A stretch of DNA of 38,145 nt from an uncultured Actinomycetes bacterium (GTDB lineage: Bacteria; Actinomycetota; Actinomycetes; Nanopelagicales; Nanopelagicaceae). Positions within the stretch are counted from its first letter, which is position 1. Each line of letters opens with the position of its first letter. The notes beneath the pieces are model-generated. The model was not told the DNA's origin. It was given only the letters and a program-made list of their open reading frames with translations, and ran no database searches. Below, one piece after another: positions 3,445-37,299 of the stretch. Where the stretch lies: positions 1 to 38,145 of the forward strand of contig CAIQRN010000056.1 in the NCBI GenBank assembly GCA_903874255.1, written 5' to 3'. The position numbers and the translations under genes were made by a program.

Positions 3445-3452
3445 AATCTAGA

Positions 3453-3490
3453 AATAAACCCTACCGATTTTTCCGGCGGTAGGGTTTATT
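3453..3490. terminator. Bidirectional intrinsic terminator between convergent genes
   Basis: A perfect 14-bp stem, AATAAACCCTACCG paired with CGGTAGGGTTTATT, around a 10-base loop, with T bases after it on the plus strand and A bases before it. It serves the cytochrome b module and, read the other way, the TSUP permease gene, whose stop codon abuts it at 3492. Confidence 0.9.
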
Positions 3491-3491
3491 T

Positions 3492-4238
3492 TTATGCCAG
3501 AAGAAACTTGGCTCCGGCAATTAAGAGAACGCAACCAAGCGCGCGTTTAACGCCTGTTGAAGATAACCGTGAAATACCAAAACGGGTTCCAATAAAAGCA
3601 CCAAGTAAAACTGCAACTAAGTAAATAGGTAGTTCGTGTGGCAAAGCTGTAGTTGATGCAAAGTTGCCAAGCAGACCAGATACTGAGTTCACAAAGATAA
3701 ATGCTGCAACGGTGCCACTTGCCTGCTTAACACTTACCCACCCCAACCAAATAATTAATGGGGATAGAAAGATACCGCCACCAGTGCCGGTGATACCTGA
3801 GAGCAGGCCAATACATGCACCTATAAAGATTGCGAGCGGTTTATTTATTTCTTGGATAGTTTTTTCACTTTGAACCGCTTGAATTAAAAAGCGAATTCCC
3901 GAGAGCAAAAGCAGCACACCAATAATTGGCTTATAGATATGGCTAGGCAGATTTATATGACCACCGATAAAAGCTGCCGGAATAGATCCAGCAATAAGGT
4001 AGAAGAAAAGAGATTTATGAAAAAGTTGGCTCTTGATATATCGAATCGAGGCATAAAGAGATACGAAAATATTGAGAGTAAGTGCCGTTGGTTTTATAAC
4101 GATTGGTGGCACATCAAAAATAGTCATGATGGCAATGTATGCCGAAGCTCCTGCATGGCCCACCGATGTATAAAGCATTGCGCCAAAAAAGAGGAAAGTT
4201 GCAATCAAGACCATGCTTAAAAGGATAATAGAAATCAC
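3492..4238 (-). CDS. TauE/SafE (TSUP) family membrane permease
   Basis: Predicted exporter or importer of a small sulfur-containing or organic anion (the family includes sulfite, sulfoacetate and taurine-related carriers). The 248-aa protein has about eight hydrophobic helices in two related halves. The family loop is recognisable in each half: TSVGHAGASAY near residue 25 and GITGTGGGIFLSPL near residue 150. The substrate cannot be told from the sequence. The start used is GTG at 4238; an ATG at 4214, eight codons inside, has a TATCCT box seven bases upstream on its strand and could be a leaderless alternative start that keeps most of the first helix. Confidence 0.85.
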   Translation of the reverse strand: MISIILLSMVLIATFLFFGAMLYTSVGHAGASAYIAIMTIFDVPPIVIKPTALTLNIFVSLYASIRYIKSQLFHKSLFFYLIAGSIPAAFIGGHINLPSHIYKPIIGVLLLLSGIRFLIQAVQSEKTIQEINKPLAIFIGACIGLLSGITGTGGGIFLSPLIIWLGWVSVKQASGTVAAFIFVNSVSGLLGNFASTTALPHELPIYLVAVLLGAFIGTRFGISRLSSTGVKRALGCVLLIAGAKFLLA

Positions 4239-24805: not shown

Positions 24806-25513
24806 GTGACGAACAATGACAAGTTTTCGCTCTGGTTAAGTTCTCATCCGGATCCAAATGAAATTGCAAGACACTTAGTTGAAGTAAGTTTTGCGCAATA
24901 TCGTTCTGTCAGTTCACGCATTAGCAAAATAAATAACGATGGCTCATTAACTTTTATAGGCGAATTCGGGCATAAAGAAGCGCTGCTTGGCAAGACATAT
25001 GCATCTGAAGAATGGCATCAATGGCGTGGGGATGCTGCGCGGTTGGCTCTGGGAATCGATTCGGGAAACTGGAATGAGCAGCACAAGCTTGTTGTCGCGA
25101 TGCTAATTGATAATGGCAATGTGCATGGTTTTGTAGTCGTTGATTTCAAGGAGACTGTTGATGATACTCAAGAGGTCGTTGACATGCTTCGCTCAATGTC
25201 TTACCCGCTGAGTCTTTATTTAACTGGCGAACAACTGATTGGAAATCGTGCGAAAGATTTCGCCATCGGTTCGGCATCTGCGGGCGGGGCACTTGCACAT
25301 GATGAAGCAGGGCAAGTGCGCAAACAGTTAACAGATCGCCAGATTGAAGTTTTGAAATTGGTTTCTCAAGGTAAAACAAATCACGAAATTGCAAAACATT
25401 TGGGATATTCGGTTTCAACTATTCGCCATGATGTAATGCATTTGTTCAGGGTTCTTCGAATCAGCGCTCGCAATGAAGCCGGGCCTAGAGCTGCAGAATT
25501 GGCGATTATTTAG
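24806..25513 (+). CDS. LuxR-family transcriptional regulator with GAF-like sensor region
   Basis: 235-aa DNA-binding regulator. The C-terminus (about 172-230) is a LuxR helix-turn-helix: LTDRQIEVLKLVSQGKTNHE, IAKHLGYSVSTIRHDVMHLF, then RVLRISARNEAG. Residues 1-160 have an alternating sheet-helix look compatible with a GAF domain; no phosphorylation Asp pocket of a receiver domain is seen, so it is not a standard two-component regulator. GAGGTG precedes the GTG start by five bases. It stands directly before the adhesin and the tad genes in the same direction, so it may control attachment (inference). Confidence 0.87.
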   Translation: MTNNDKFSLWLSSHPDPNEIARHLVEVSFAQYRSVSSRISKINNDGSLTFIGEFGHKEALLGKTYASEEWHQWRGDAARLALGIDSGNWNEQHKLVVAMLIDNGNVHGFVVVDFKETVDDTQEVVDMLRSMSYPLSLYLTGEQLIGNRAKDFAIGSASAGGALAHDEAGQVRKQLTDRQIEVLKLVSQGKTNHEIAKHLGYSVSTIRHDVMHLFRVLRISARNEAGPRAAELAII

Positions 25514-25608: not shown

Positions 25609-28600
25609 ATGAGAAATGACTACCCCTCGAGCGCTAAAAGGTTACGTAAGAGTTGGATTCATCTAGGGGTAGCGCTAGGCACAGTCTTTTTTCTCGTAGT
25701 AACAGGACCGACAGGTCATGCGGCTACAGGTGCTGCAACAGTAGGAAATGGTTTAACGACAAGTGATTTAAATTCAATCGGGATGTCAGCCAACACTTTG
25801 GCAAGTCTATTGATTGATCCGGCATCCGGCATCACTGGTATTAATAGCGTGGTCTTTACGGGAAATAACAACCAAGCAGGTTCCATTCACGTAGTTGATC
25901 CCAACGTAGTTTCCTTCAATGACGGAGTGATTTTATCTAGTGGAAATATTGCCGATGTGGTGGGGCCAAATAAATCAGATAGCACTACAACTGATGAAGG
26001 AAATAATGGCGATGCTGATTTAGATCAGCTGATCCAGGATACGCAGACAGTGTTTCCGGCAACGTATGACGCGGCATCGCTGTCCTTTAAGTTCACAGCA
26101 CCGGTTGGTGCAAGTGATTTGTATTTCACGTATGTCTTTGGCTCTGATGAATACTTGGAATGGGTCAATCTTTATAACGACGTATTTGGTTTATTTGTAA
26201 ATGGGCAAAACTGCGCCGTTGCACCAAATCCATCATTAACTGGAACTGTGCCAGTAAGTATCGACACAATTAATAGTGCGGTTAACACCAATCTCTTTAG
26301 AGACAACGCCTTTATGACTGCAAGCAATCCTTTGAACTTCGAATCAGATGGTTTGAGTGTTGAGATGGTCTGTCATGCACAGATTCACGCAGGAGAAAAC
26401 ACAATTAAATTTGTAATCGCAGATACCAGCGATCGGGTTCTAGATTCAATCGTCATGATTAAATCTGGAAGCTTTTCAACTACTCCAATCGAATCATGTA
26501 ACAACAAAGTTGATGACGATGGTGATAACGCAGTAGATATGGACGACACCTATTGCACAAGCACAACTGTGGCAGCTCCTGCGGGAACTTCATTATTGCC
26601 GGTTGATCCAGTAACCAACCAGCCGGTTCCCGTTGCAGATGTGCCAACAGCGTATGGATTTAGTTCAATTACTACGCCGCCATTTACAGGCAATGAAGGT
26701 TCACCGATTTTGTTAGATGCAAACTTCAAAGGTTGGACCGCACGACTTGCATCTGCTCCTGGCGAGCCATATACAGTTTCAACTTCTTGGACAGTCAAAC
26801 TTAAATCGAATAACTCGATCACTTGTCAGATAACTCCGTCGGGAACTATTGCGCACACATATGGCACGTACATTGAACTTGCGTCGGCAATTTGCCCACA
26901 GGATGGCGAATACATTGCACAAATTGTTGGTATGGATAGCGAGAACAGTTCTGATTTTGATTACGACATTGATTTCTTTGTGCATAACGCACCGCCTTCA
27001 GTTGCTGTTGATGCATCAACTACGTATACGGCTGGAGTCGACGAGACAGTAAATTTTGTTGCAAATGTTTCAGATCCTGGTGGGGATGCAACGACTTGTG
27101 CAATTAACTGGGGCGACGGAAGCCCTGAATCCACGCCGGTAATTTCTGGCGGCACTTGCGAAGACAGTCATACGTATTCTTCTTTGGGCACAAAAATCGT
27201 TTCAGTTAAAGCATCTGACAATGTAAATGCAACTGCAGCTGCCGTTGCGGCGATCAACATCGCGCCTCCATTTGTTGCTACGGCACCGGATGCGCCATCA
27301 ATTACCGGTGCAATTGCCGGGGACACCACTGTTGAGTTGAGTTGGAGCGCACCTGCCAATGACGGCGGAGCAATAATCGATATGTACTCTATTTTCCAAT
27401 CTGAAACAGTTGATGGAACATATGTATCAAGTTCTGCAACTTGCGCAGCCCTTGATTCATTGACCTGCACCGTGGATAGCTTGGTAAATGGCACCACGTA
27501 TTACTTCAAGGTTATGGCGCATAATTCAGTTGACTGGTCTGTACTTTCTGCAGCAAGTGATGGCGTTGTTCCAGCGATAACTGGACTGGACCCTACCTTT
27601 GGTTCTGCAACACCGACCGAAGATGGATTTACTTTACAAATTCAGAATTTTGATACTGGTTACATTTGGGCAGGTACAAATTCCGAGCTAGGTTCGGTTT
27701 CTATTAGCGACACCGGCCTAATTACAGTCACCGGCCTGGGTTACTTGGTTTCATCAACTGTCACCATTACGACTTCCCTTACTGGTTACCTAGATGGAAC
27801 TGCAACTAGCGAAACAGTAACCACACTGGATGATCCAGCAGTGGCACAAGCTGCTGCAGATCAGACAGCAGCCGATGCCATTAAGACCCTCATCACCAAC
27901 TCATCTTGGAGCCTTGCTCGAAGCGGCTATGACGCACTAACTACTGCGCAAAAAGCTCTCGTCACAAACTATGCAACGCTAACTGCCCATGAAGATGCAG
28001 TGGCACAAGCTGCTGCAGATCAGACAGCAGCCGATGCCGTTAAAACTCTCATCACCAACTCTTCATGGAGCCTTGCTCGAAGTGGTTATGACGCACTAAC
28101 AAATAATCAAAAAGCTCTCGTCACAAACTATGCAGATTTAATAGCACATGAATCCACGCCACCTCCACCACCAAGTGGCGGCGGCGGTGGATATTTCCCA
28201 CCTCCATCTCCTGCACTTTCAAGTGACACTTCACTTTCTAAGTTCACTGTGAATGGAACAAATGCAATCGCCGGGGCAGTATCTATCAACGTTGAAAACG
28301 GTGTTACCTCTGTTGCAGTTGTTGCAACTGCTACAGATAGTGGTGCAACTGTTGTAATTACTGGAGATACAAAACTTGTAACTGGCAAGAATCAGATCAA
28401 TGTGAAAGTTACTGCAGCTGATTCAACGGTGAAGAACTACAGCGCTGAAGTTGTTGTTGCATCTCCTGCACCAACTCCAACACCGACACCAACACCGACT
28501 CCAACACCGACACCAACTCCTACTCCAACACCAACACCAACACCAACACCAACTCCTACTTCAACACCTGCACCTGCGAAGGTATTGGGCGGGGGAGTAA

Positions 28601-28926
28601 CTCAGGTCAATCCACAGAGCGCGGCAACTGCAACGAAACCATCTGTTGCAAAGCCAGCTACAACATCGGCAAAAGCGCCAACGGTTGTAGCAGTTACGGG
28701 TCAAGTACTTGCGCCAGTTGTGAAATCACTTCCAAAGAGTGTGAAGTTGACTGCAACAATTGTGATCAACGGAAAGAGCGTTTCACTTGGAACGGTAAAG
28801 ACAACTTCTGCCGGAGCCGCAACACTTCCAGCATTTAGTGCAGCAAAAGCTGGCACATATATTGTTCAACTGAGTTCAAGCACCGGAGCCAAGTACTTCA
28901 TCAAGGTGGTTGTGAAGGCTAAATAA
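25609..28926 (+). CDS. Large modular secreted adhesin-like protein
   Basis: 1105 aa, exported (basic start plus helix at 16-36, cleavage after HAA). Modules: a choice-of-anchor L domain (about 50-290: SADTL-like start, FVFGSDEYLEWVN, then DGLSVEM); a Ca-binding-like CNNKVDDDGDNAVDMDD; an uncharacterised part; a PKD domain (about 464-547, CAINWGDGSPES); a fibronectin type III domain (about 557-653); a beta domain; two 53-aa near-identical repeats (744-849); a Pro/Gly linker; a cadherin-like beta-sandwich (869-952, KFTVNG through VKNYSAEVVV); a (Pro-Thr)15 stalk; and an Ig-like C-terminus. There is no LPXTG motif or final membrane helix, so how it is held at the cell is unclear. It immediately precedes the pilin genes. 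Confidence 0.88.
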   Translation: MRNDYPSSAKRLRKSWIHLGVALGTVFFLVVTGPTGHAATGAATVGNGLTTSDLNSIGMSANTLASLLIDPASGITGINSVVFTGNNNQAGSIHVVDPNVVSFNDGVILSSGNIADVVGPNKSDSTTTDEGNNGDADLDQLIQDTQTVFPATYDAASLSFKFTAPVGASDLYFTYVFGSDEYLEWVNLYNDVFGLFVNGQNCAVAPNPSLTGTVPVSIDTINSAVNTNLFRDNAFMTASNPLNFESDGLSVEMVCHAQIHAGENTIKFVIADTSDRVLDSIVMIKSGSFSTTPIESCNNKVDDDGDNAVDMDDTYCTSTTVAAPAGTSLLPVDPVTNQPVPVADVPTAYGFSSITTPPFTGNEGSPILLDANFKGWTARLASAPGEPYTVSTSWTVKLKSNNSITCQITPSGTIAHTYGTYIELASAICPQDGEYIAQIVGMDSENSSDFDYDIDFFVHNAPPSVAVDASTTYTAGVDETVNFVANVSDPGGDATTCAINWGDGSPESTPVISGGTCEDSHTYSSLGTKIVSVKASDNVNATAAAVAAINIAPPFVATAPDAPSITGAIAGDTTVELSWSAPANDGGAIIDMYSIFQSETVDGTYVSSSATCAALDSLTCTVDSLVNGTTYYFKVMAHNSVDWSVLSAASDGVVPAITGLDPTFGSATPTEDGFTLQIQNFDTGYIWAGTNSELGSVSISDTGLITVTGLGYLVSSTVTITTSLTGYLDGTATSETVTTLDDPAVAQAAADQTAADAIKTLITNSSWSLARSGYDALTTAQKALVTNYATLTAHEDAVAQAAADQTAADAVKTLITNSSWSLARSGYDALTNNQKALVTNYADLIAHESTPPPPPSGGGGGYFPPPSPALSSDTSLSKFTVNGTNAIAGAVSINVENGVTSVAVVATATDSGATVVITGDTKLVTGKNQINVKVTAADSTVKNYSAEVVVASPAPTPTPTPTPTPTPTPTPTPTPTPTPTPTPTSTPAPAKVLGGGVTQVNPQSAATATKPSVAKPATTSAKAPTVVAVTGQVLAPVVKSLPKSVKLTATIVINGKSVSLGTVKTTSAGAATLPAFSAAKAGTYIVQLSSSTGAKYFIKVVVKAK
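27838..28155 (+). repeat. Two tandem 159-bp in-frame repeats in the adhesin gene
   Basis: Units at 27838-27996 and 27997-28155, each 53 codons (start AVAQAAADQTAADA, then SSWSLARSGYDAL, then QKALVTNYA). They are nearly identical at the DNA level over most of their length, which suggests recent duplication. They look helical and could act as a spacer or binding unit. Confidence 0.9.
28471..28560 (+). repeat. (Pro-Thr)15 coding microsatellite
   Basis: Fifteen in-frame hexamers of CCN-ACN, encoding a Pro-Thr stalk between the cadherin-like domain and the C-terminal module. The third positions vary, so the DNA is not a pure repeat, but length changes by slippage remain possible. Confidence 0.92.
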
Positions 28927-29005: not shown

Positions 29006-29245
29006 ATGGCCGAAATGAACGCTAAGTTAATTTTCGCATTCACAGTCATGATTTCAGGGGTTCAGGCCAAGCTGACTCGATTTTCCCGCGACGAAAATGG
29101 GGCAACGGCCGTTGAATACGCTCTGATTATTGGCCTGATTACCATTGCAATTTTCACCGCAGTTCTCCTATTGGGAGATTCCATCGGCGTGCAAATCGCT
29201 AAAGCATCTTGTGCCGTACAAGGCAAAGATTATCCCTGCTCCTAA
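29006..29245 (+). CDS. Flp-type pilin 1
   Basis: 79-aa prepilin of the Tad pilus. Processing site G32-ATAVEY with Glu at +5, cut by the TadV peptidase, giving a 47-aa mature pilin made mostly of one hydrophobic helix (ALIIGLITIAIFTAVLLLG). The leader is 32 residues, long for Flp. The mature end ASCAVQGKDYPCS has two cysteines, uncommon in Flp pilins. AAAGAGGA precedes ATG 29006. It lies 79 bases after the adhesin gene, with no terminator between. Confidence 0.93.
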   Translation: MAEMNAKLIFAFTVMISGVQAKLTRFSRDENGATAVEYALIIGLITIAIFTAVLLLGDSIGVQIAKASCAVQGKDYPCS

Positions 29246-29284
29246 TTAAAGGTCAGGTGAAGTTGGCTTTTAAGTCCGCAATTC

Positions 29285-29327
29285 ACCCCCTGCTTTGATA
29301 TTATTGGGGGGTAAACCCTTCCCCCAA
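29285..29327 (+). promoter_or_regulatory. G-run with competing hairpins before the second pilin gene
   Basis: A six-base G run (29306-29311) can pair with C5 upstream (29285-29290, giving ACCCCC/GGGGGT) or with C5 downstream (TTGGGGG 29304-29310 / CCCCCAA 29321-29327). Only one can form at a time. The downstream form ends seven bases before the AAAGGA ribosome site. A TATTAT box (29299-29304) could also start a transcript in the G run. Function unknown. Confidence 0.45.
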
Positions 29328-29341
29328 AGCAAAGGAACGCC

Positions 29342-29608
29342 ATGACTGGTTTAATCACAAAAGGTTTCATAGCGGGAGATTTTTTCTTCCAAAAAACACA
29401 TGCGAAGATCGTACGTTTCACTCGCAATGAGAACGGCGCAACTGCCGTTGAGTACGCTCTAATCGTCGGTTTGATTACTGTTCTTATTTTTGCTGCAGTT
29501 AAGCTTCTAGGTGGTTCAATCAGCGACCAAATTACTAAAGCAACATGTGCGGTTCAAGGAAAAGGCTATAACACCAACTCCTTAACTGGCGCTATCACTT
29601 GTGCCTAA
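29342..29608 (+). CDS. Flp-type pilin 2
   Basis: 88-aa prepilin, a paralogue of the preceding gene. The site is again G32-ATAVEY, after a leader of exactly 32 residues; the mature form is 56 aa, with ALIVGLITVLIFAAVKLLGG as the helix and ATCAVQGKGY as a shared stretch before a longer tail ending ITCA. Both mature pilins carry two cysteines, 9 and 18 residues apart. AAAGGA is six bases before ATG 29342. A strong terminator-like hairpin follows, so pilin mRNA may end here most of the time. Confidence 0.93.
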   Translation: MTGLITKGFIAGDFFFQKTHAKIVRFTRNENGATAVEYALIVGLITVLIFAAVKLLGGSISDQITKATCAVQGKGYNTNSLTGAITCA

Positions 29609-29626: not shown

Positions 29627-29680
29627 AAACACCTCTTCGCATTGGTAATTGAATCATGATGCGAAGAGGTGTTTTATTTT
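29627..29680 (+). terminator. Terminator-like hairpin overlapping the tadE start
   Basis: A perfect 16-bp stem (29627-29642 with 29659-29674: AAACACCTCTTCGCAT / ATGCGAAGAGGTGTTT), a 16-base loop, then TTATTTT. It has every mark of an intrinsic terminator after the second pilin gene. The right arm begins at the second ATG of tadE and the first ATG (29656) is in the loop, so folding would also mask translation. Confidence 0.85.
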
Positions 29681-30108
29681 CTGAACGTGGCGCAACTGCT
29701 GTTGAGTTTGCGCTCATTCTGCCCCTGATGCTGGTTTTGATTTTTGCACTAGTCGATTTCGGGCGAATTGGATATACACAGATCATGGTCGCATCGGTTG
29801 CAAATGATGGTGCGCGATTAAGTTCTTTAGATTCAGCGGGCGTCACTGATTCACAAAATGTTGTCGATTTTGTACAAAGTTCGGCACTTGATGCCGCAAA
29901 GATCGCACAGCTCGGTGGATCTGGTGCTTTAACAGTGACGGTTACGAAGTGCTCTAGTACTGCATCATCGGAAAATACGCTCGTAACTGCTTCAACAAAC
30001 TTCAAGTGGTTGCTCCCAGTTGGCTTATTGTCATTGGTCACAAATGGTGCCGCGTCTCTCGATGATTTTACGATTTCCTCAACTGGAACTATGAGATGCA
30101 TGAATTGA
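29656..30108 (+). CDS. TadE-like minor pilin
   Basis: 150-aa pseudopilin of the Tad system. The processing motif RG-ATAVEFALILPLMLVLIFA appears from residue 12, with Glu at +5, giving a short leader. The rest is a soluble outer domain with one cysteine near KCSSTASS and another near the end. Minor pilins of this type are thought to help start or cap the pilus. No Shine-Dalgarno sequence is visible: the start (ATG 29656 or 29659) lies in the terminator hairpin, so expression must depend on read-through and unfolding. The next gene starts one base after its stop. Confidence 0.88.
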   Translation: MMRRGVLFSERGATAVEFALILPLMLVLIFALVDFGRIGYTQIMVASVANDGARLSSLDSAGVTDSQNVVDFVQSSALDAAKIAQLGGSGALTVTVTKCSSTASSENTLVTASTNFKWLLPVGLLSLVTNGAASLDDFTISSTGTMRCMN

Positions 30109-30109
30109 G

Positions 30110-31237
30110 ATGCTGAAAAAATTTAAAAGTATTGAAAACGAGGACGGCGCAATTGCCGTAATTTTTGCAATCATCACATCCCTTGTAGTTGTTGGTTTAT
30201 TAGCCCTTGTAATAGATGTATCAGCGTTATATGCAGAGCGTCGAGTTGTACAAAATGCAGCTGATTCAGCCGTACTGGCAACCGCTCAAGAGTGTGCAAC
30301 AAGTGGCACTGGGGCCATTGATGGAAGTGGCGCTTATGGAAGCAATGTTTGTGCAAATCAGATTTACGTCAAAGAATTTGCCGGTAAATACGCAAATCTA
30401 AATTCGCCAGATTCATTGACGGATGTTTCTGAAGTTTGCGGATCGAGCCCCTTGAATTCCTGTGCATCGCTTACATCTGGAAAGTACGAGTGCCACAACG
30501 TCGATTCAAAATATCCAACTTACGTTCGAGTGAAAACGAGCACCAGGCAAAGTTCGGGCACGGGAATTAAATCAATTTTTGGTGCAGCCTCAGGCGCAAG
30601 TTCTAGCACAACGGTTGTAGGTTGCGCGCAAGCAGCTTGGGGAATAGCAGCTAGTGCACCAGTAATAATGCCGATTGCCTTGTCTGTTTGCGATTGGCAA
30701 TTGACTGGAGCGAATTCGCTAGTAAATTTCGATGCCACTTCACCAACTGTGCAATGTTCAATTAAGAATTTGTCTGGCAATTTCTCCACCCACGCATCAG
30801 CCACCAACGGATTCAATGTAATTAGCAATTTGGGGTGCCCTGGAATCGGAACACCACCACAAGTAAAATTGGGTGATGTAGTGCACATTGCAACTACGGG
30901 ACCTGAATTAAATCAGGTGGCAGGAACGTGCGGAGAATTTCAAACTCAACTCAGCAACTTGATTAATGCCAAAGTTTTCTTTCCACTCGTGGAATGTCAA
31001 TCCAACTGCGATGCCAACAACTCTTATGAAGTTCTGGGATTTCTTGGATTTAAGTACACGGGTAGCAAGTGGATGGGCGTGACACATGGAACAAATTCCA
31101 ATTGGCCTTCGGCATGTGACGCGACTCGAATCTGCCTTTACGGTACCTTTGAGCGTTCAGTTGTACCCGGGGCCGACATTTCCCTAGATGCAGGAACCCC
31201 TGATATCGGAGCTTTGGCCGTGCAACTATTACCGTAA
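30110..31237 (+). CDS. TadG-like protein with N-terminal Tad domain
   Basis: 375 aa. The N-terminus NEDGAIAVIFAIITSLVVVG and LALVIDVSALYAERRVVQNA followed by ADSAVLATAQ is the Tad domain (TadG). The pilin-like site here is G-AIAVIF, with Ile at +5 instead of Glu, so cleavage by the peptidase is doubtful. The outer part has many cysteines (over ten), spread in pairs, suggesting a disulfide-rich secreted domain. Its role is probably at the pilus base or as an anchor in the wall. ATG 30110 is one base after the tadE stop. Confidence 0.87.
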   Translation: MLKKFKSIENEDGAIAVIFAIITSLVVVGLLALVIDVSALYAERRVVQNAADSAVLATAQECATSGTGAIDGSGAYGSNVCANQIYVKEFAGKYANLNSPDSLTDVSEVCGSSPLNSCASLTSGKYECHNVDSKYPTYVRVKTSTRQSSGTGIKSIFGAASGASSSTTVVGCAQAAWGIAASAPVIMPIALSVCDWQLTGANSLVNFDATSPTVQCSIKNLSGNFSTHASATNGFNVISNLGCPGIGTPPQVKLGDVVHIATTGPELNQVAGTCGEFQTQLSNLINAKVFFPLVECQSNCDANNSYEVLGFLGFKYTGSKWMGVTHGTNSNWPSACDATRICLYGTFERSVVPGADISLDAGTPDIGALAVQLLP

Positions 31238-31258
31238 TTGAAAGCGAGAACTGAAAAA

Positions 31259-31987
31259 ATGGCACGTGCGAAGATGAAGAAGTCAACCCTTCAACTCATA
31301 GTGATCATTGTGCTTTCCGTGCTCTCTGGGTTGGCGATCTACACCTATACATCTGGTGTTGAATCACGGATTCGCGCTTCCGAACAAACCACACCCATCT
31401 ATATAACTCTTAAGCAGATTCCTGTGGGAACTGCCCTTGGCTCTGCAATCAACCAGGGATACATCGAACAGAAGCAATTTCCAAGAGATTCAGTTCCTTC
31501 ACAAGCAATTACATTGGTTAATACGGCAAATGCAAACCTAGTTGCAATGCAGACACTTCAACCTGGCCAAGTTATTTTGGAAAACAACTTTGGTGTGACG
31601 GCAGCAAATACCGGGGCACTCGTCATTCCAGATGGCCAACTGGCAGTCACAGTTTCATTGGGCGATCCTGCGCGCGTAGCCAGTTTCTTGCAGCCAGGTT
31701 CCGAGATCACAATTTTCGTAACTGGTACCAGAGACAAAATCAAATTTACAGATGTTTTAATTACTAGAACTCAAGTTCTGGCCGTTGGAACTCAAGTTCT
31801 TCCATCTAGCAATGGTGGTGCCGCTGGCAATTCTTCACCACTTATTACAGTTGCGGTATCACCTGATCAAGCTAAGAAACTTATCCATGCTTCACAGACG
31901 CTCTCACTGTACTTTGGTTTAAGAACTACAGGTGTGGATTTTGGAACGTCAGCTGCAGCTACTGATAACAATATTCTGAGTAAATAG
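31259..31987 (+). CDS. cpaB: Flp pilus assembly protein CpaB/RcpC
   Basis: About 242 aa, with one N-terminal membrane helix (LQLIVIIVLSVLSGLAIYTY) and a SAF-type domain: IYITLKQIPVGTALGSAI, then VAMQTLQPGQVIL. A C-terminal beta domain follows (RcpC/CpaB). In diderms it binds the secretin; here, with no outer membrane, it more likely contacts the wall. I prefer ATG 31259; TTG 31238 directly after the tadG stop and ATG 31274 are alternatives, none with a strong ribosome site. Confidence 0.87.
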   Translation: MARAKMKKSTLQLIVIIVLSVLSGLAIYTYTSGVESRIRASEQTTPIYITLKQIPVGTALGSAINQGYIEQKQFPRDSVPSQAITLVNTANANLVAMQTLQPGQVILENNFGVTAANTGALVIPDGQLAVTVSLGDPARVASFLQPGSEITIFVTGTRDKIKFTDVLITRTQVLAVGTQVLPSSNGGAAGNSSPLITVAVSPDQAKKLIHASQTLSLYFGLRTTGVDFGTSAAATDNNILSK

Positions 31988-32002
31988 AAGAGGTTATTAA
32001 CA

Positions 32003-33169
32003 ATGACATTCATTCTGACCGATTCGAGTGATGAGACACAGCGTTATCAGTTCACCCTAGGTGAAAACGTTGTTGTGACTACTTCTACCTACGAGCTGTA
32101 TGACTTAGTAAAAGCTAATAGCGAAGAACAGCTGATCATTATCGGGCCAAATGTAAAGATGGAAACTGCCCGTGTTGTTGCCGAGCATTTTCGCGTTGAT
32201 CGCCCAAGTTTGGGCGTGATTCTTGTGCGAACACGCCTGGATGTAACAACGATGAGCGAAGCGCTGCGATCTGGAATTCGCGAAGTCGTCAGCTCGGATG
32301 ATGCAGCAGCACTAGTCGCAGCAAGCAAGCGTTCGCTATCGATTTCAGGCCAGCTGATGGAAGCCAGCCGAATTGTGGGAGCTAGTAATTCACGCGGCAA
32401 AATACTGATTGTCTTTTCAGCTAAAGGTGGCTGCGGAAAGACAACATTATCGGTCAACTTGGCACATGCTTTGGCAAATTATACCGATTCAAAGGTGGCG
32501 CTCCTAGATTTCGATCTCCAATTCGGAGACGTAGCAGTTGCGCTGCAGATTGAACCTAAGAAAACAATTAGCGATGCAATTAGTATGCAAAATAATCTTG
32601 ATGAACTTGGCATAAATTCGCTAATGGTCAATCAAATGAAAAATTTAGATATTTTGCTAGCACCAACTAATCCAACCGACATTGAATTTATCTCAACCGA
32701 ACTCATTGATACGCTGCTTGAGTCACTAAAGAATTCTTATGACTATATTGTCGTAGACACTTCACCGGCATTTACCGATGTAATCCTGCGAGTATTTGAT
32801 CAAGCCGATCGTTGCTTCTTATTAACAACTCTCGATATGCCAGCGATTAAGAATTTGAAACTGGTTATCAGCACGTTAGAGGCGCTTAATATCAATAAAA
32901 CTAAATTGGAATTTATCCTCAATCGAAGCGATATTAAGTCTGGATTAACAATGCGCGAAGTTGAAGCGATGGTGGGGGAGACCTTCTCTACTCTTATTCC
33001 ATCTAGCAATGACGTATCTGCATCAACAAATCGCGGTGTCCCACTTGTCATTGAAAAGCCTCGTCATTCTGTTAGCCGAGAAATTATTGATTTAGCTATT
33101 CGTACTGATACTAGTTTCCGTCCTATTGTTGATAAGAAGCGCGGTATTTTTAGGAGAAAAAGTAAGTGA
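32003..33169 (+). CDS. cpaE: Tad pilus ParA/MinD-like ATPase CpaE/TadZ
   Basis: 388-aa protein placing the pilus machine at its site in the cell. The first 125 residues look like an atypical receiver domain; a deviant Walker A follows (SAKGGCGKTTLSVNLAHAL near 138-156), with LLDFDLQFGDVAVAL and VVDTSPAFTD, as in the ParA/MinD superfamily. GAGG precedes ATG 32003. Its stop overlaps the next gene's GTG as GTGA. Confidence 0.92.
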   Translation: MTFILTDSSDETQRYQFTLGENVVVTTSTYELYDLVKANSEEQLIIIGPNVKMETARVVAEHFRVDRPSLGVILVRTRLDVTTMSEALRSGIREVVSSDDAAALVAASKRSLSISGQLMEASRIVGASNSRGKILIVFSAKGGCGKTTLSVNLAHALANYTDSKVALLDFDLQFGDVAVALQIEPKKTISDAISMQNNLDELGINSLMVNQMKNLDILLAPTNPTDIEFISTELIDTLLESLKNSYDYIVVDTSPAFTDVILRVFDQADRCFLLTTLDMPAIKNLKLVISTLEALNINKTKLEFILNRSDIKSGLTMREVEAMVGETFSTLIPSSNDVSASTNRGVPLVIEKPRHSVSREIIDLAIRTDTSFRPIVDKKRGIFRRKSK

Positions 33170-34521
33170 GTCTTTCTGAGCGACTTGGTCAAGGAGATTC
33201 GGAAAACGCAAGATCCTTTCCTGATTTAAGTAAATTGAGCGAAGAGTTGAACCCCCGCTTTGAGGCCCCACAAACAAGTGATGACAGCATCAAAACGCAA
33301 GTTCTTGAGACATTAATTCAATCATTAGGTGCACAGTTATATTCTGGCCAAGTTGAAGAAGAGTTGCTTGAGCAAAATGTCTATGAAGCTATCGCCTCAG
33401 TTATCTCAACCAGCCAGCGCTCTTTAACTAGCTATGACCGTGCAGAACTTGTACAAAATATTGTCGATGAAATTATGGGCCTAGGTCCACTTCAAACTTT
33501 GCTTCGTAACCCGGATATTACTGAAGTGATGGTCAATCGCTTCGACAAGATTTTTGTTGAAATCAAAGGAACTATTACGGCAACAGATCTTAAATTTTCC
33601 TCTGAAGAGCATTTGCGCCGAACAATTGAGCGAATCGTTGGTCAAGTCGGTCGTCGAATCGATGAATCTAGCCCCATGGTTGATGCCCGCCTAGCCGATG
33701 GAAGCCGCGTTAATGCAGTTGTCCCACCAATTGCCTTGGATGGTTCATCACTAACGATTCGTAAATTTGCACAGGATCCTTTTACCGTTAAAGATTTAAT
33801 TGCAACAGGCACCTTTTCCATTGAAGCAATGAAATTCATCGAAAATTGTGTTGCTGGAAAATTTAATATCGTAATCAGTGGGGGAACCGGTTCAGGTAAG
33901 ACAACCTCTCTCAATGTTTTATCCTCGTTTATCGGCAAGAATGAGCGGATTATTACTATTGAAGATGCCGCCGAACTTCAATTGCCGCAGCCACACGTAG
34001 TGCGCATGGAATCACGCCCCGTAAATACTGAAGGTGCCGGCCAAGTAACGATTAGAGATTTAGTTCGCAACTCACTTCGTATGCGCCCAGATCGCATCAT
34101 TGTTGGTGAAGTTCGAGACGCTGCCGCAATGGATATGTTGCAGGCAATGAATACGGGCCATGAAGGATCACTAACCACAGTTCACGCCAACACTGCTCGT
34201 GATGCACTTACACGCATCGAGACAATGGTTTTGATGGCTGGAATGGATCTTCCTATTGAATTTATCCGTCAACAAATCGTTGAAGCAATTGACGTTATTG
34301 TTCAGCAAAATCGTATGCGCGATGGTTCAAGGCGAGTAACCCAGATAAGTGAAATCGTTGGTCTTGAAGGTAATGTGATTCAAGTCCAGGACATTTTTAC
34401 TTTCAACCATAATCCGGATTTGAATAGCAAAAATATTGGCGAGCTTGTACCTACAGGTCTGCCATTTAATAACAATAACTTCCGACGTGGCAGTGTTACA
34501 CCTTCGGCTCTGCTGAGATAA
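33166..34521 (+). CDS. cpaF: Tad pilus assembly/secretion ATPase CpaF/TadA
   Basis: 451-aa hexameric ATPase powering pilus extension and perhaps retraction. Visible: [37 protein letters not shown], Walker [16 protein letters not shown] near 239, [12 protein letters not shown] (Asp box), [14 protein letters not shown] (Walker B region) and [13 protein letters not shown] (His box). All catalytic motifs are intact. The start is GTG 33166 with AGGAGA upstream. Confidence 0.95.
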
Positions 34522-34525
34522 ATTT

Positions 34526-36142
34526 ATGAAGAGAATTTTAGTCAGCCTAGTTTTCGGGCTTCTTTGCCTTCAACCCCTGCCCGCACATGCAGCAACACCC
34601 GGTCCAATTATTTTCGTCATAGATACAAGCGGATCTATGAATCAGGGAAAATTGGAAGCAGTTAAAGCGGCAGTTACGCAGATAATTAATAATCTCAAAC
34701 CGGAACAGAAAATTGGAATTATTTCCTTTAGTCAAAAAGTTACGAATGCGTTGCCCTCTACATCTGATCATGAAGCCGCGCTTAGGCAGATAGATTCACT
34801 TTTTGCAGGTGGCGACACTTCTATGTATGACGCGGTTGAAGAGGCGATCAGTTTGCAAACCTTGGAACATCCAAGTCAGATTGTTCTACTAAGCGATGGA
34901 AAAGACACGACGAGTCTCTTGAAGCTGGATCGAATATTGACCGATGTTAAGAACGTCGGGATTCCGATTGAAGCCATTGGCGTCCAAGTAACTTCAGATC
35001 AGAAGAAAGTCTTACAATCAATTGCAGAGACAAGTGGTGGCGCTTACTACGGTGTTGCCGATATTTCAAAACTTATCCTGACTTATTCTGAAATATTAGC
35101 CGAACAGTTGATTCCAACGGCTAGCCCATCGCCAACGAAATCTGCAGAAGTAGAACAGCCAGTGAATTTTGGGCCTCTTCAATTTAATAGAAGTGTCTAC
35201 TTTGAAACACTTGTCGGCACGATTGCTGGAATTCTAGTTCTGTTGCTAGCAATTAATTTGCGCAATAGGAATCAAAATAGAAAAAGACAAAAAGCACGAG
35301 TTAAAACTTTACAGAAGTATTCTTACCGCCAAGCTAAAAAGGCAAGAAGACGAATAAAGATTTCAATTACTACATATAGTTTTGTTCCAAAGCGAATTGA
35401 AATTGCGATTCTTAGAAATCTCGAACTAATTCACAGTGAAAATAGATATGAAATGGTTGTTCAGGGACTGATAGGTTCTTGGGTATTTATATCGCTATTT
35501 GTCACTTTGATTGTTAACTCCATTTTCTTAGGCATGGTAATTGCCACTATTGCCGTGCCTCTTGTTTTTAAGGCTGTAATTAAAGCCATGCGTGGCAATG
35601 AGAAAGTTAAATTTGCCGAAGATTTGCCAGAGCTGCTCAATATTTTGGCAAGCGCATTACGTGCTGGCCTGAGTTTGGTTCAAGGGCTTGAGGCGTATTC
35701 GGGAGAAACTAAAAACGTAGTAGCCCGCGAAATTCGTCGCGCCATGGGCGAAATCAGAGTCGGAACACCGGTTGACGAAGCTCTCATGGGCGTTGCGGAT
35801 CGAATGGACAATGATGATTTGCGATGGGCTGTGACCGCGTTATCGATTCAGCGTGTGGTCGGTGGAAGTATGGCAACGATATTAACTACCGCCTATGACA
35901 CCGTACGTGCCCGTGCCGAGATTCGCCGTGAAGTTAAAACACTTGCCGCAGAAGGCAAGTTATCTGCCTATGTTTTGATGGCCCTGCCTATTGGAATTTT
36001 TGCTTTCCTATTCCTGACGCGCCGTGATTTTGTGGAGGTATTTTGGACTGATCCGCTGGGTATTTTATTTTCGATAATTATTATTTTTAACCTTGTGGCT
36101 GGCTGGAAGTGGATTAAGAAGATTGTGGAGATTAAAATATGA
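34526..36142 (+). CDS. Von Willebrand A domain fused to TadB (type II secretion F-like) membrane protein
   Basis: 538 aa. It begins with a signal peptide-like helix (1-22), then a VWA domain (about 27-195) with a complete-looking metal site, D33-T-S35-G-S37, GGDTSMYDA and LLSDGKDTT. A Pro/Ser linker and a membrane helix (about 228-248) lead to a basic segment and the TadB part, with T2SSF block LPELLNILASALRAGLSLVQ near 366 and four or so helices in all. Normal TadB has no VWA domain. The topology puts VWA outside, the T2SSF loop inside. The order of genes matches tadA-tadB-tadC. The fusion is one continuous frame. Confidence 0.9.
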   Translation: MKRILVSLVFGLLCLQPLPAHAATPGPIIFVIDTSGSMNQGKLEAVKAAVTQIINNLKPEQKIGIISFSQKVTNALPSTSDHEAALRQIDSLFAGGDTSMYDAVEEAISLQTLEHPSQIVLLSDGKDTTSLLKLDRILTDVKNVGIPIEAIGVQVTSDQKKVLQSIAETSGGAYYGVADISKLILTYSEILAEQLIPTASPSPTKSAEVEQPVNFGPLQFNRSVYFETLVGTIAGILVLLLAINLRNRNQNRKRQKARVKTLQKYSYRQAKKARRRIKISITTYSFVPKRIEIAILRNLELIHSENRYEMVVQGLIGSWVFISLFVTLIVNSIFLGMVIATIAVPLVFKAVIKAMRGNEKVKFAEDLPELLNILASALRAGLSLVQGLEAYSGETKNVVAREIRRAMGEIRVGTPVDEALMGVADRMDNDDLRWAVTALSIQRVVGGSMATILTTAYDTVRARAEIRREVKTLAAEGKLSAYVLMALPIGIFAFLFLTRRDFVEVFWTDPLGILFSIIIIFNLVAGWKWIKKIVEIKI

Positions 36143-37299
36143 GCGACTCACTATTTAATCTTCTTCCAATTTTTTCTGGTGTCCTTGTAACGATCACGCT
36201 TTTGCTTGCTTCTCGCGTTGGTCTTCGCAGTTTAAGTGAAGTTCGCATGAAGATGCGACGTCTTGAAATTGTGCGTAATTATCAATTTTCCGGAAAAGCA
36301 GGAGCCAAGAAGCTTTCCAAGCAGTTGGGTATGGCCAAGGTGGTTGTCGGTTCATACGGTGATCGACTCGTCAAAGACAAGTACCGCAACAAATTAGAGC
36401 GGTTATTGGTTAGTTCTGGTGACTGGGAAAACAAGAAATACTCTAAATTGGTTCAACGCAAGGTGGTTTTTTCAGTACTTGGTTTCTTTTCTGGATTTTT
36501 CATTTTGCTTCTTCGAAATATTCAACTGATTCCGATTCTCTTTGTCATTGCATTAGTTGCATACATGCTTCCCGACGTCGAACGTTTTCTGCAGAAAATT
36601 ACTGGAATCCGTTACCGAAATCGCCTGGAACATATGTTGGACCAAGCGGGCAGCTGGCAAAATAAGGACTACATGTCATTAATTCGCCGTAAAATTATTT
36701 TCTCACTTAATAGTTTCGTCGTTAGTTACCTATATTTAATTGCAAAAGATAAGAGTTATGGCAGCCTCTTGTTAAGTGCTATTGCCATTTTTATTGGATT
36801 CTTCTTGCCAGATATCTTGCTCCAAAACAAAGTCATTAAGCGCAAGGAAATGCTTGCCGATACTTTGCCAGATGCAATTGAAATGTTACAGATGTGCGTT
36901 GGAGCGGGCCTTGCATTTTCGGCAGCGTTATCTAAAGTTGCTGAAACCCAGAAAGGTCCAGTTGCCGAAGAGTTTGCTCGAGTGACCGCCGAAGTACAGC
37001 TTGGTCAATCTCGATCTGAAGCACTTGCGTCGATGGCTGAGCGAACACAGGAAAAGCATGTTCAGAAGTTTGTGAACTCTATGATGCAAGTAGATCGCTT
37101 TGGTATTCCGGTAGGAAATGTTTTGATTGAACAAGCCAAGGAAATGCGCGCAGCAAGACGCGCACGCGCAAGAGAGCGCGGACAAAAAGTTCCAGTAAAA
37201 ATCTTGGCACCTATCATGCTCTGCTTTTTACCAACGGTACTGCTGATCATTCTCGGCCCCGTCATAATCTCCATAATGCACGTATTTACGCAAGGTTAA
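36139..37299 (+). CDS. tadC: TadC-like inner-membrane pilus protein with internal duplication
   Basis: 386-aa T2SSF-family platform protein, partner of TadB. The core is LADTLPDAIEMLQMCVGAGL, then SAALSKVAETQKG, then a final helix pair. Its N-terminal part holds two copies of one segment: about residues 80-155 (KYRNKLERLLVSSGDWENK) and 157-235 (RYRNRLEHMLDQAGSWQNK), each followed by a basic RK-V/I-FS turn and two hydrophobic helices. The second copy is the one normally next to the T2SSF core. ATG 36139 overlaps the preceding stop (ATGA) and has GGAG upstream. Confidence 0.9.
   Translation: MSDSLFNLLPIFSGVLVTITLLLASRVGLRSLSEVRMKMRRLEIVRNYQFSGKAGAKKLSKQLGMAKVVVGSYGDRLVKDKYRNKLERLLVSSGDWENKKYSKLVQRKVVFSVLGFFSGFFILLLRNIQLIPILFVIALVAYMLPDVERFLQKITGIRYRNRLEHMLDQAGSWQNKDYMSLIRRKIIFSLNSFVVSYLYLIAKDKSYGSLLLSAIAIFIGFFLPDILLQNKVIKRKEMLADTLPDAIEMLQMCVGAGLAFSAALSKVAETQKGPVAEEFARVTAEVQLGQSRSEALASMAERTQEKHVQKFVNSMMQVDRFGIPVGNVLIEQAKEMRAARRARARERGQKVPVKILAPIMLCFLPTVLLIILGPVIISIMHVFTQG

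Follow-up and report, generated by a model that had tools for sequence, protein, structure and literature searches.

A conserved hairpin at the flp-tadE junction of a Nanopelagicaceae tad locus, and its possible role in setting the ratio of pilin to assembly machinery

In type IV pilus cassettes, a Rho-independent terminator lies between pilA and tfpY/tfpZ, and it has been proposed to hold the ratio of the pilin to the product of the downstream gene (PMC11841053). Stem-loops also follow the genes of abundant subunits in clostridia, where U tracts are poor or absent and the structures act by processing and stability, or by partial termination (PMC4423207, PMC9045158). In riboswitch expression platforms, a single hairpin both terminates transcription and hides the next initiation site (PMC2258182).

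The hairpin described here lies in a 38,145-nt stretch of DNA (the window) from an uncultured actinomycete of the Nanopelagicaceae, at the 3' end of a promoter-proximal subunit gene, i.e., after the second Flp pilin gene and before the assembly genes of a tad locus, and it is best read as a variant of these post-pilin terminators, processing or stabilisation stem-loops and dual expression platforms. Like the pilA-tfpY/tfpZ terminator (PMC11841053), it directly follows the major pilin gene, but its system is Tad (Flp) rather than type IVa, it overlaps the next start codon, and its U tail is not conserved among relatives. It resembles the internal terminators and the stem-loops of selective RNA processing and stabilisation (SRPS), in which a long stem, in many cases with a poor U tract after it, lies at the 3' end of an operon's highly expressed first gene, for an abundant subunit; those elements have been described as intergenic (PMC9045158, PMC4423207), whereas here the right arm is coding and holds a start codon. 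As in a dual riboswitch platform (PMC2258182), one hairpin could terminate and, on read-through, hide the next start, although here there is no known aptamer, the element is inside an operon instead of a 5' UTR, and the apex holds the start codon. Since no Rfam family was matched anywhere in the window, we do not class the hairpin among riboswitches, though it may have an aptamer of a kind not yet described. A literature search for terminators overlapping a start codon found none.

The tad locus and its hairpin

The pilin genes, the hairpin and the assembly genes are all on the forward strand. Two Flp pilin genes, flpA (29006-29245; Pfam PF04964 Flp_Fap, E 2.2e-10) and flpB (29342-29608; the same family, E 4.9e-13), are followed by tadE (29656-30108, with its start at 29656 or 29659; PF07811 TadE, E 8.9e-16) and then, based on Pfam matches and gene order, by the remaining assembly genes at 30110-37299, namely TadG-like, cpaB/rcpC, a tadZ-like ATPase, the tadA ATPase, VWA-TadB and tadC. 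In the product of the TadB-like gene (34526-36142), a von Willebrand A domain at the N terminus is joined to the T2SSF domain. The flpA-flpB gap (29246-29341) holds C-run/G-run hairpins (-29.3 kcal/mol) and a TTGATATTATT motif common to the related genome G123, and is possibly a separate promoter for flpB. Adjoining the pilin genes on the 5' side is a gene for a very large predicted secreted protein (25609-28926; 1105 aa, with fn3 and PKD-like domains and PTPTP repeats), itself preceded by a gene for a LuxR-like regulator (24806-25513). Elsewhere in the window, convergent genes are separated by a strong terminator-like inverted repeat (3449-3494), bidirectional and U-tailed, which can serve as a within-genome yardstick.

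The preliminary description of this DNA reported a perfect 16-bp stem with a T-rich tail after the second pilin gene, its right arm encoding the first residues of TadE, and both parts of that report were borne out. The left arm (29627-29642) is non-coding, with its foot 18 nt 3' of the flpB stop codon, and is complementary at 16 of 16 nt to the right arm (29659-29674), from which it is separated by 16 nt. Part of that inter-arm stretch (29643-29658) is closed by two further pairs, so that the helix, with G-U pairs counted, comes to 18 bp with a loop of 12 nt; its last three bases (29656-29658) are an ATG, the first possible tadE start, and the right arm opens with the second (29659-29661) and encodes the TadE leader M-R-R-G-V. 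The U-rich tail, TTTTATTTT (29672-29680), is also coding, supplying Leu-Phe-Ser codons, and is common in full only to the window and G123. A 101-nt stretch across the junction folds at -38.5 kcal/mol, compared with -16.6 +/- 2.6 kcal/mol for shuffled versions, none of which (0 of 200) equalled it; with 16 perfect pairs and a z of -8.5, a stable stem, as an intrinsic terminator requires, is predicted for the transcript. The loop is a different matter, as a standard terminator scan accepts loops of 3-8 nt, and the scan of the window omitted the hairpin because its loop is longer than that limit. A long loop is atypical for a terminator, a short one being typical and not strictly defining. The hairpin is single-copy, i.e., a search of the genome with its sequence matched only itself and its own reverse complement, which rules out a repeat element of the REP or MITE kind.

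The stem and its tail among relatives

The size and base composition of the genome, together with a genus of many species, suggest a streamlined freshwater actinobacterium. The tad locus is patchy in the genus, with TadE profile matches in 7 of 135 genomes, that of the window included; a TadC search added one further locus (G127), on a contig that stops within tadG and does not reach tadE. At all seven readable loci, several of them from closely related genomes, a hairpin occupies the flp-tadE junction. Their longest uninterrupted helices are 18, 14, 17, 16, 13, 20 and 16 bp, where shuffled sequences average 7-8 bp, and their loops of 12-24 nt all lie outside the 3-8 nt range of the scan. The geometry of the junction is also retained, as the feet of the stems are 14-21 nt past the pilin stop and their 3' feet are 21-27 nt from the TadE VEF motif. 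Among 280 other ends of tandem genes in the genus, only 7 have a helix of at least 13 bp. Poor conservation of the pairing in relatives had been named in advance as grounds for abandoning the terminator proposal, and on this point the stem did strikingly well, having been kept at seven of seven loci and with compensatory changes. The hairpin was absent from two Flp-TadE junctions in other genera of the family (z +1.2 and +2.1), and a contig scan with the pilin as query matched only two alphaproteobacterial relatives. A separate feature was seen in G076 (L058:3150-3260), where two copies of an 8-bp palindrome, GACCGGTC, flank a TAGAAT hexamer 5' of the pilin gene, possibly forming a regulator site over the pilin promoter; the arrangement was not seen in G094.

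As three divergent species had junction sequences that were no longer alignable, and a MAFFT alignment of all seven misaligned their stems, covariation was assessed in the four alignable species and an arm swap was used for the rest. In those four, standard pairs made up 96.9% of pair cells, compared with 41-53% when the partner arm was slid, and four pairs had changed on both sides; none of 500 shuffles attained the covariation score. As counts from four related sequences, these are modest by themselves. One of the changes affects the start codon, CAT:ATG in the window having become CAC:GTG in G076 and G094. In the arm swap, each species' own arms paired over 13-20 bp and those of distant species over 5-9 bp. 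Ten G-U pairs are kept across the seven stems, and in five of the seven cases the sense strand gives the longer helix, with one tie and one exception, G118 (13 bp sense, 16 bp antisense). Read from sequence, the G-U pairs and the sense-strand preference point to a structure in the mRNA, not to a DNA palindrome or template-switch artefact.

The tail is less uniform. In the ten bases after the outermost G-C pair there are 8 U residues in the window and in G123, 7 in G094, 5 in G076, and 4 in each of G118, G080 and G148, i.e., a good tail in two species, a fair one in G094, and a weak tail or none in four. The window and G123 are thus good candidates for intrinsic termination, but because the tail is not conserved this cannot be the function that all seven share, and termination at the T tract, as the preliminary description had it, does not stand as a conserved property. 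The conserved feature is the stem.

Hairpins after Flp pilin genes extend beyond the genus. Across the class, a strong hairpin (z < -2.5) follows 34 of 75 Flp gene ends and 20 of 191 control stops, the latter including spurious open frames (P 1.5e-9, a value that is only a guide, as related genomes are not independent). No U tract is evident after the strong class hairpins (L098-L143). At many of the class Flp loci the next gene could not be recognised, and where a helix of at least 10 bp was accompanied by a recognised tadE-like frame, that frame was 71-132 nt beyond the helix. Overlap between hairpin and tadE was seen only in this genus, in which genes are closely spaced and the hairpin has merged with the tadE start. 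In G118, two genes for ABC substrate-binding proteins are also each followed at once by an equally strong, long stem-loop, as in PMC9045158; the first (L083, G118:C40 near 104600) lacks a U tail and the second (L086, G118:C40 near 186800) has one.

The tadE start codon and its occlusion

Translation of tadE could begin at either of two in-frame candidates, ATG 29656 at the edge of loop and arm or ATG 29659, with which the right arm begins. Just 5' of both is an in-frame stop, and there is no other in-frame ATG, GTG or TTG in the window between that stop and the mature region of TadE. The initiation site of tadE is therefore contained in, or abuts, the hairpin. Both pilin genes have SD-like sequences (AAGGA in the case of flpB, 5' of its ATG), whereas tadE has no SD upstream. 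Across the seven loci, the apex holds the start codon in six, the exception being G080, which has no ATG or GTG there and in which the one usual start codon available, a TTG, overlaps the stop of the pilin gene.

Several other ways of starting TadE were considered. An SD-like stretch in the right arm cannot serve a later start, as no in-frame ATG, GTG or TTG follows it in any species. An upstream, overlapping GTG as the true start in G076 and G094 is disfavoured by the pattern of substitution, with silent and replacing changes numbering 2 and 6 before the GTG in the stem, 6 and 2 after it, and 68 and 21 in the remainder of the gene. A pilin-TadE frameshift or fusion was ruled out by frame offsets that vary between species.

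The cost of opening the tadE start region is 29.2 kcal/mol in the window, the highest among 404 genus genes (mean 9.9, 99th percentile 20.2 kcal/mol), a set taken from the window and from 400 kb of DNA of G118 and G076, in which tadE was itself included and is the maximum, and for which the control start sites, picked by a simple rule, are approximate. The same cost is 17.6-33.0 kcal/mol for tadE in the relatives and 7-12 kcal/mol for the other tad-locus genes of the window. That the hairpin hides the tadE start, as had been suggested, was thereby upheld; the companion suggestion, that tadE translation is coupled to opening of the structure, fared less well where the pilin ribosome is concerned. 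A terminating ribosome covers approximately 10 nt beyond the stop codon, and the foot of the stem, 14-21 nt past that stop, is outside this footprint, making translational coupling through unwinding by the pilin ribosome unlikely.

Proposed role and its alternatives

The reading we favour, and consider rather probable, is that the hairpin sets stoichiometry at the level of RNA, keeping pilin high and the assembly genes low by ending or protecting the pilin mRNA and by blocking tadE initiation. A long stem would form in the mRNA a short way beyond the pilin gene, where a terminating ribosome should not reach it, and would make or protect the 3' end of the pilin message. In the window and its nearest relative this would probably involve partial intrinsic termination at TTTTATTTT, and in relatives with weak tails, processing and stabilisation or factor-assisted termination; processing and Rho-assisted routes are both available, since this genome encodes RNase E and Rho. 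In transcripts that extend further, the same stem would bury the tadE start and early codons, so that initiation would be rare, and Rho may cause further loss of the mRNA beyond, left untranslated. The overall result would be many pilins, whose abundance we infer from their role, and little assembly machinery.

A simpler possibility, which we hold to be doubtful but the most serious of the rivals, is that the hairpin belongs purely to the 3' end of the pilin mRNA, as a terminator or exonuclease barrier, that genome compaction pushed the tadE start into it, and that the block to initiation is a tolerated side effect. Post-Flp hairpins that do not overlap tadE are, after all, common in the class, the genus is compact (predicted genes cover 92-97% of the fetched DNA of relatives), and the fixed distance from the pilin stop suggests that the element takes its position from the end of the pilin gene. 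Were the overlap a neutral by-product that lowers tadE expression, however, some loci would be expected to have lost it, yet it is kept at seven of seven even though the sequences can no longer be aligned, and a compensatory change keeps the start codon paired.

Several points stand against stoichiometric control as we propose it. The U tail is weak or absent at four of seven loci, the apex in G080 holds no ATG or GTG, the helix of G118 is longer on the antisense strand, the loci number only seven and several are close relatives, and TadE is needed at some level, so its start must become accessible somehow. The hairpin might be a regulated translational gate that locks tadE and opens only under particular conditions, tying synthesis of the machine to a signal; it could be opened by temperature, by a helicase or RNA-binding protein, or by a nuclease that cleaves the loop and leaves tadE on a nearly leaderless message. 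We regard such a gate as unlikely. Purely translational control, with the stem hiding the tadE start and having no effect on transcription or mRNA stability, is improbable: it would suit the extreme occlusion at all seven loci and the unconserved U tail, but not a stem placed by the pilin end, nor the post-Flp hairpins elsewhere that cover no start, nor the textbook tail of the window and G123. A palindrome that acts only as DNA and has no function as RNA, whether it is a binding site or an inverted repeat that template-switch correction keeps perfect, is very improbable despite the perfect Watson-Crick pairing of the window copy over 16 bp, given G-U pairs that template switching would erase, helices mostly longer on the sense strand, a sequence and loop length not conserved as they are in a protein-binding palindrome, and a position fixed relative to the pilin stop.

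If the hairpin does set stoichiometry in the manner we favour, it would bear on a general question, namely how far more pilin than assembly machine can be made from one gene cluster, to which it is a compact possible answer that can be read from the sequence by itself: one stem would both end the pilin message and lock the next start codon, with compensatory change even at that codon. That hairpins are enriched after Flp genes throughout the class suggests that this may be an instance of a general rule.
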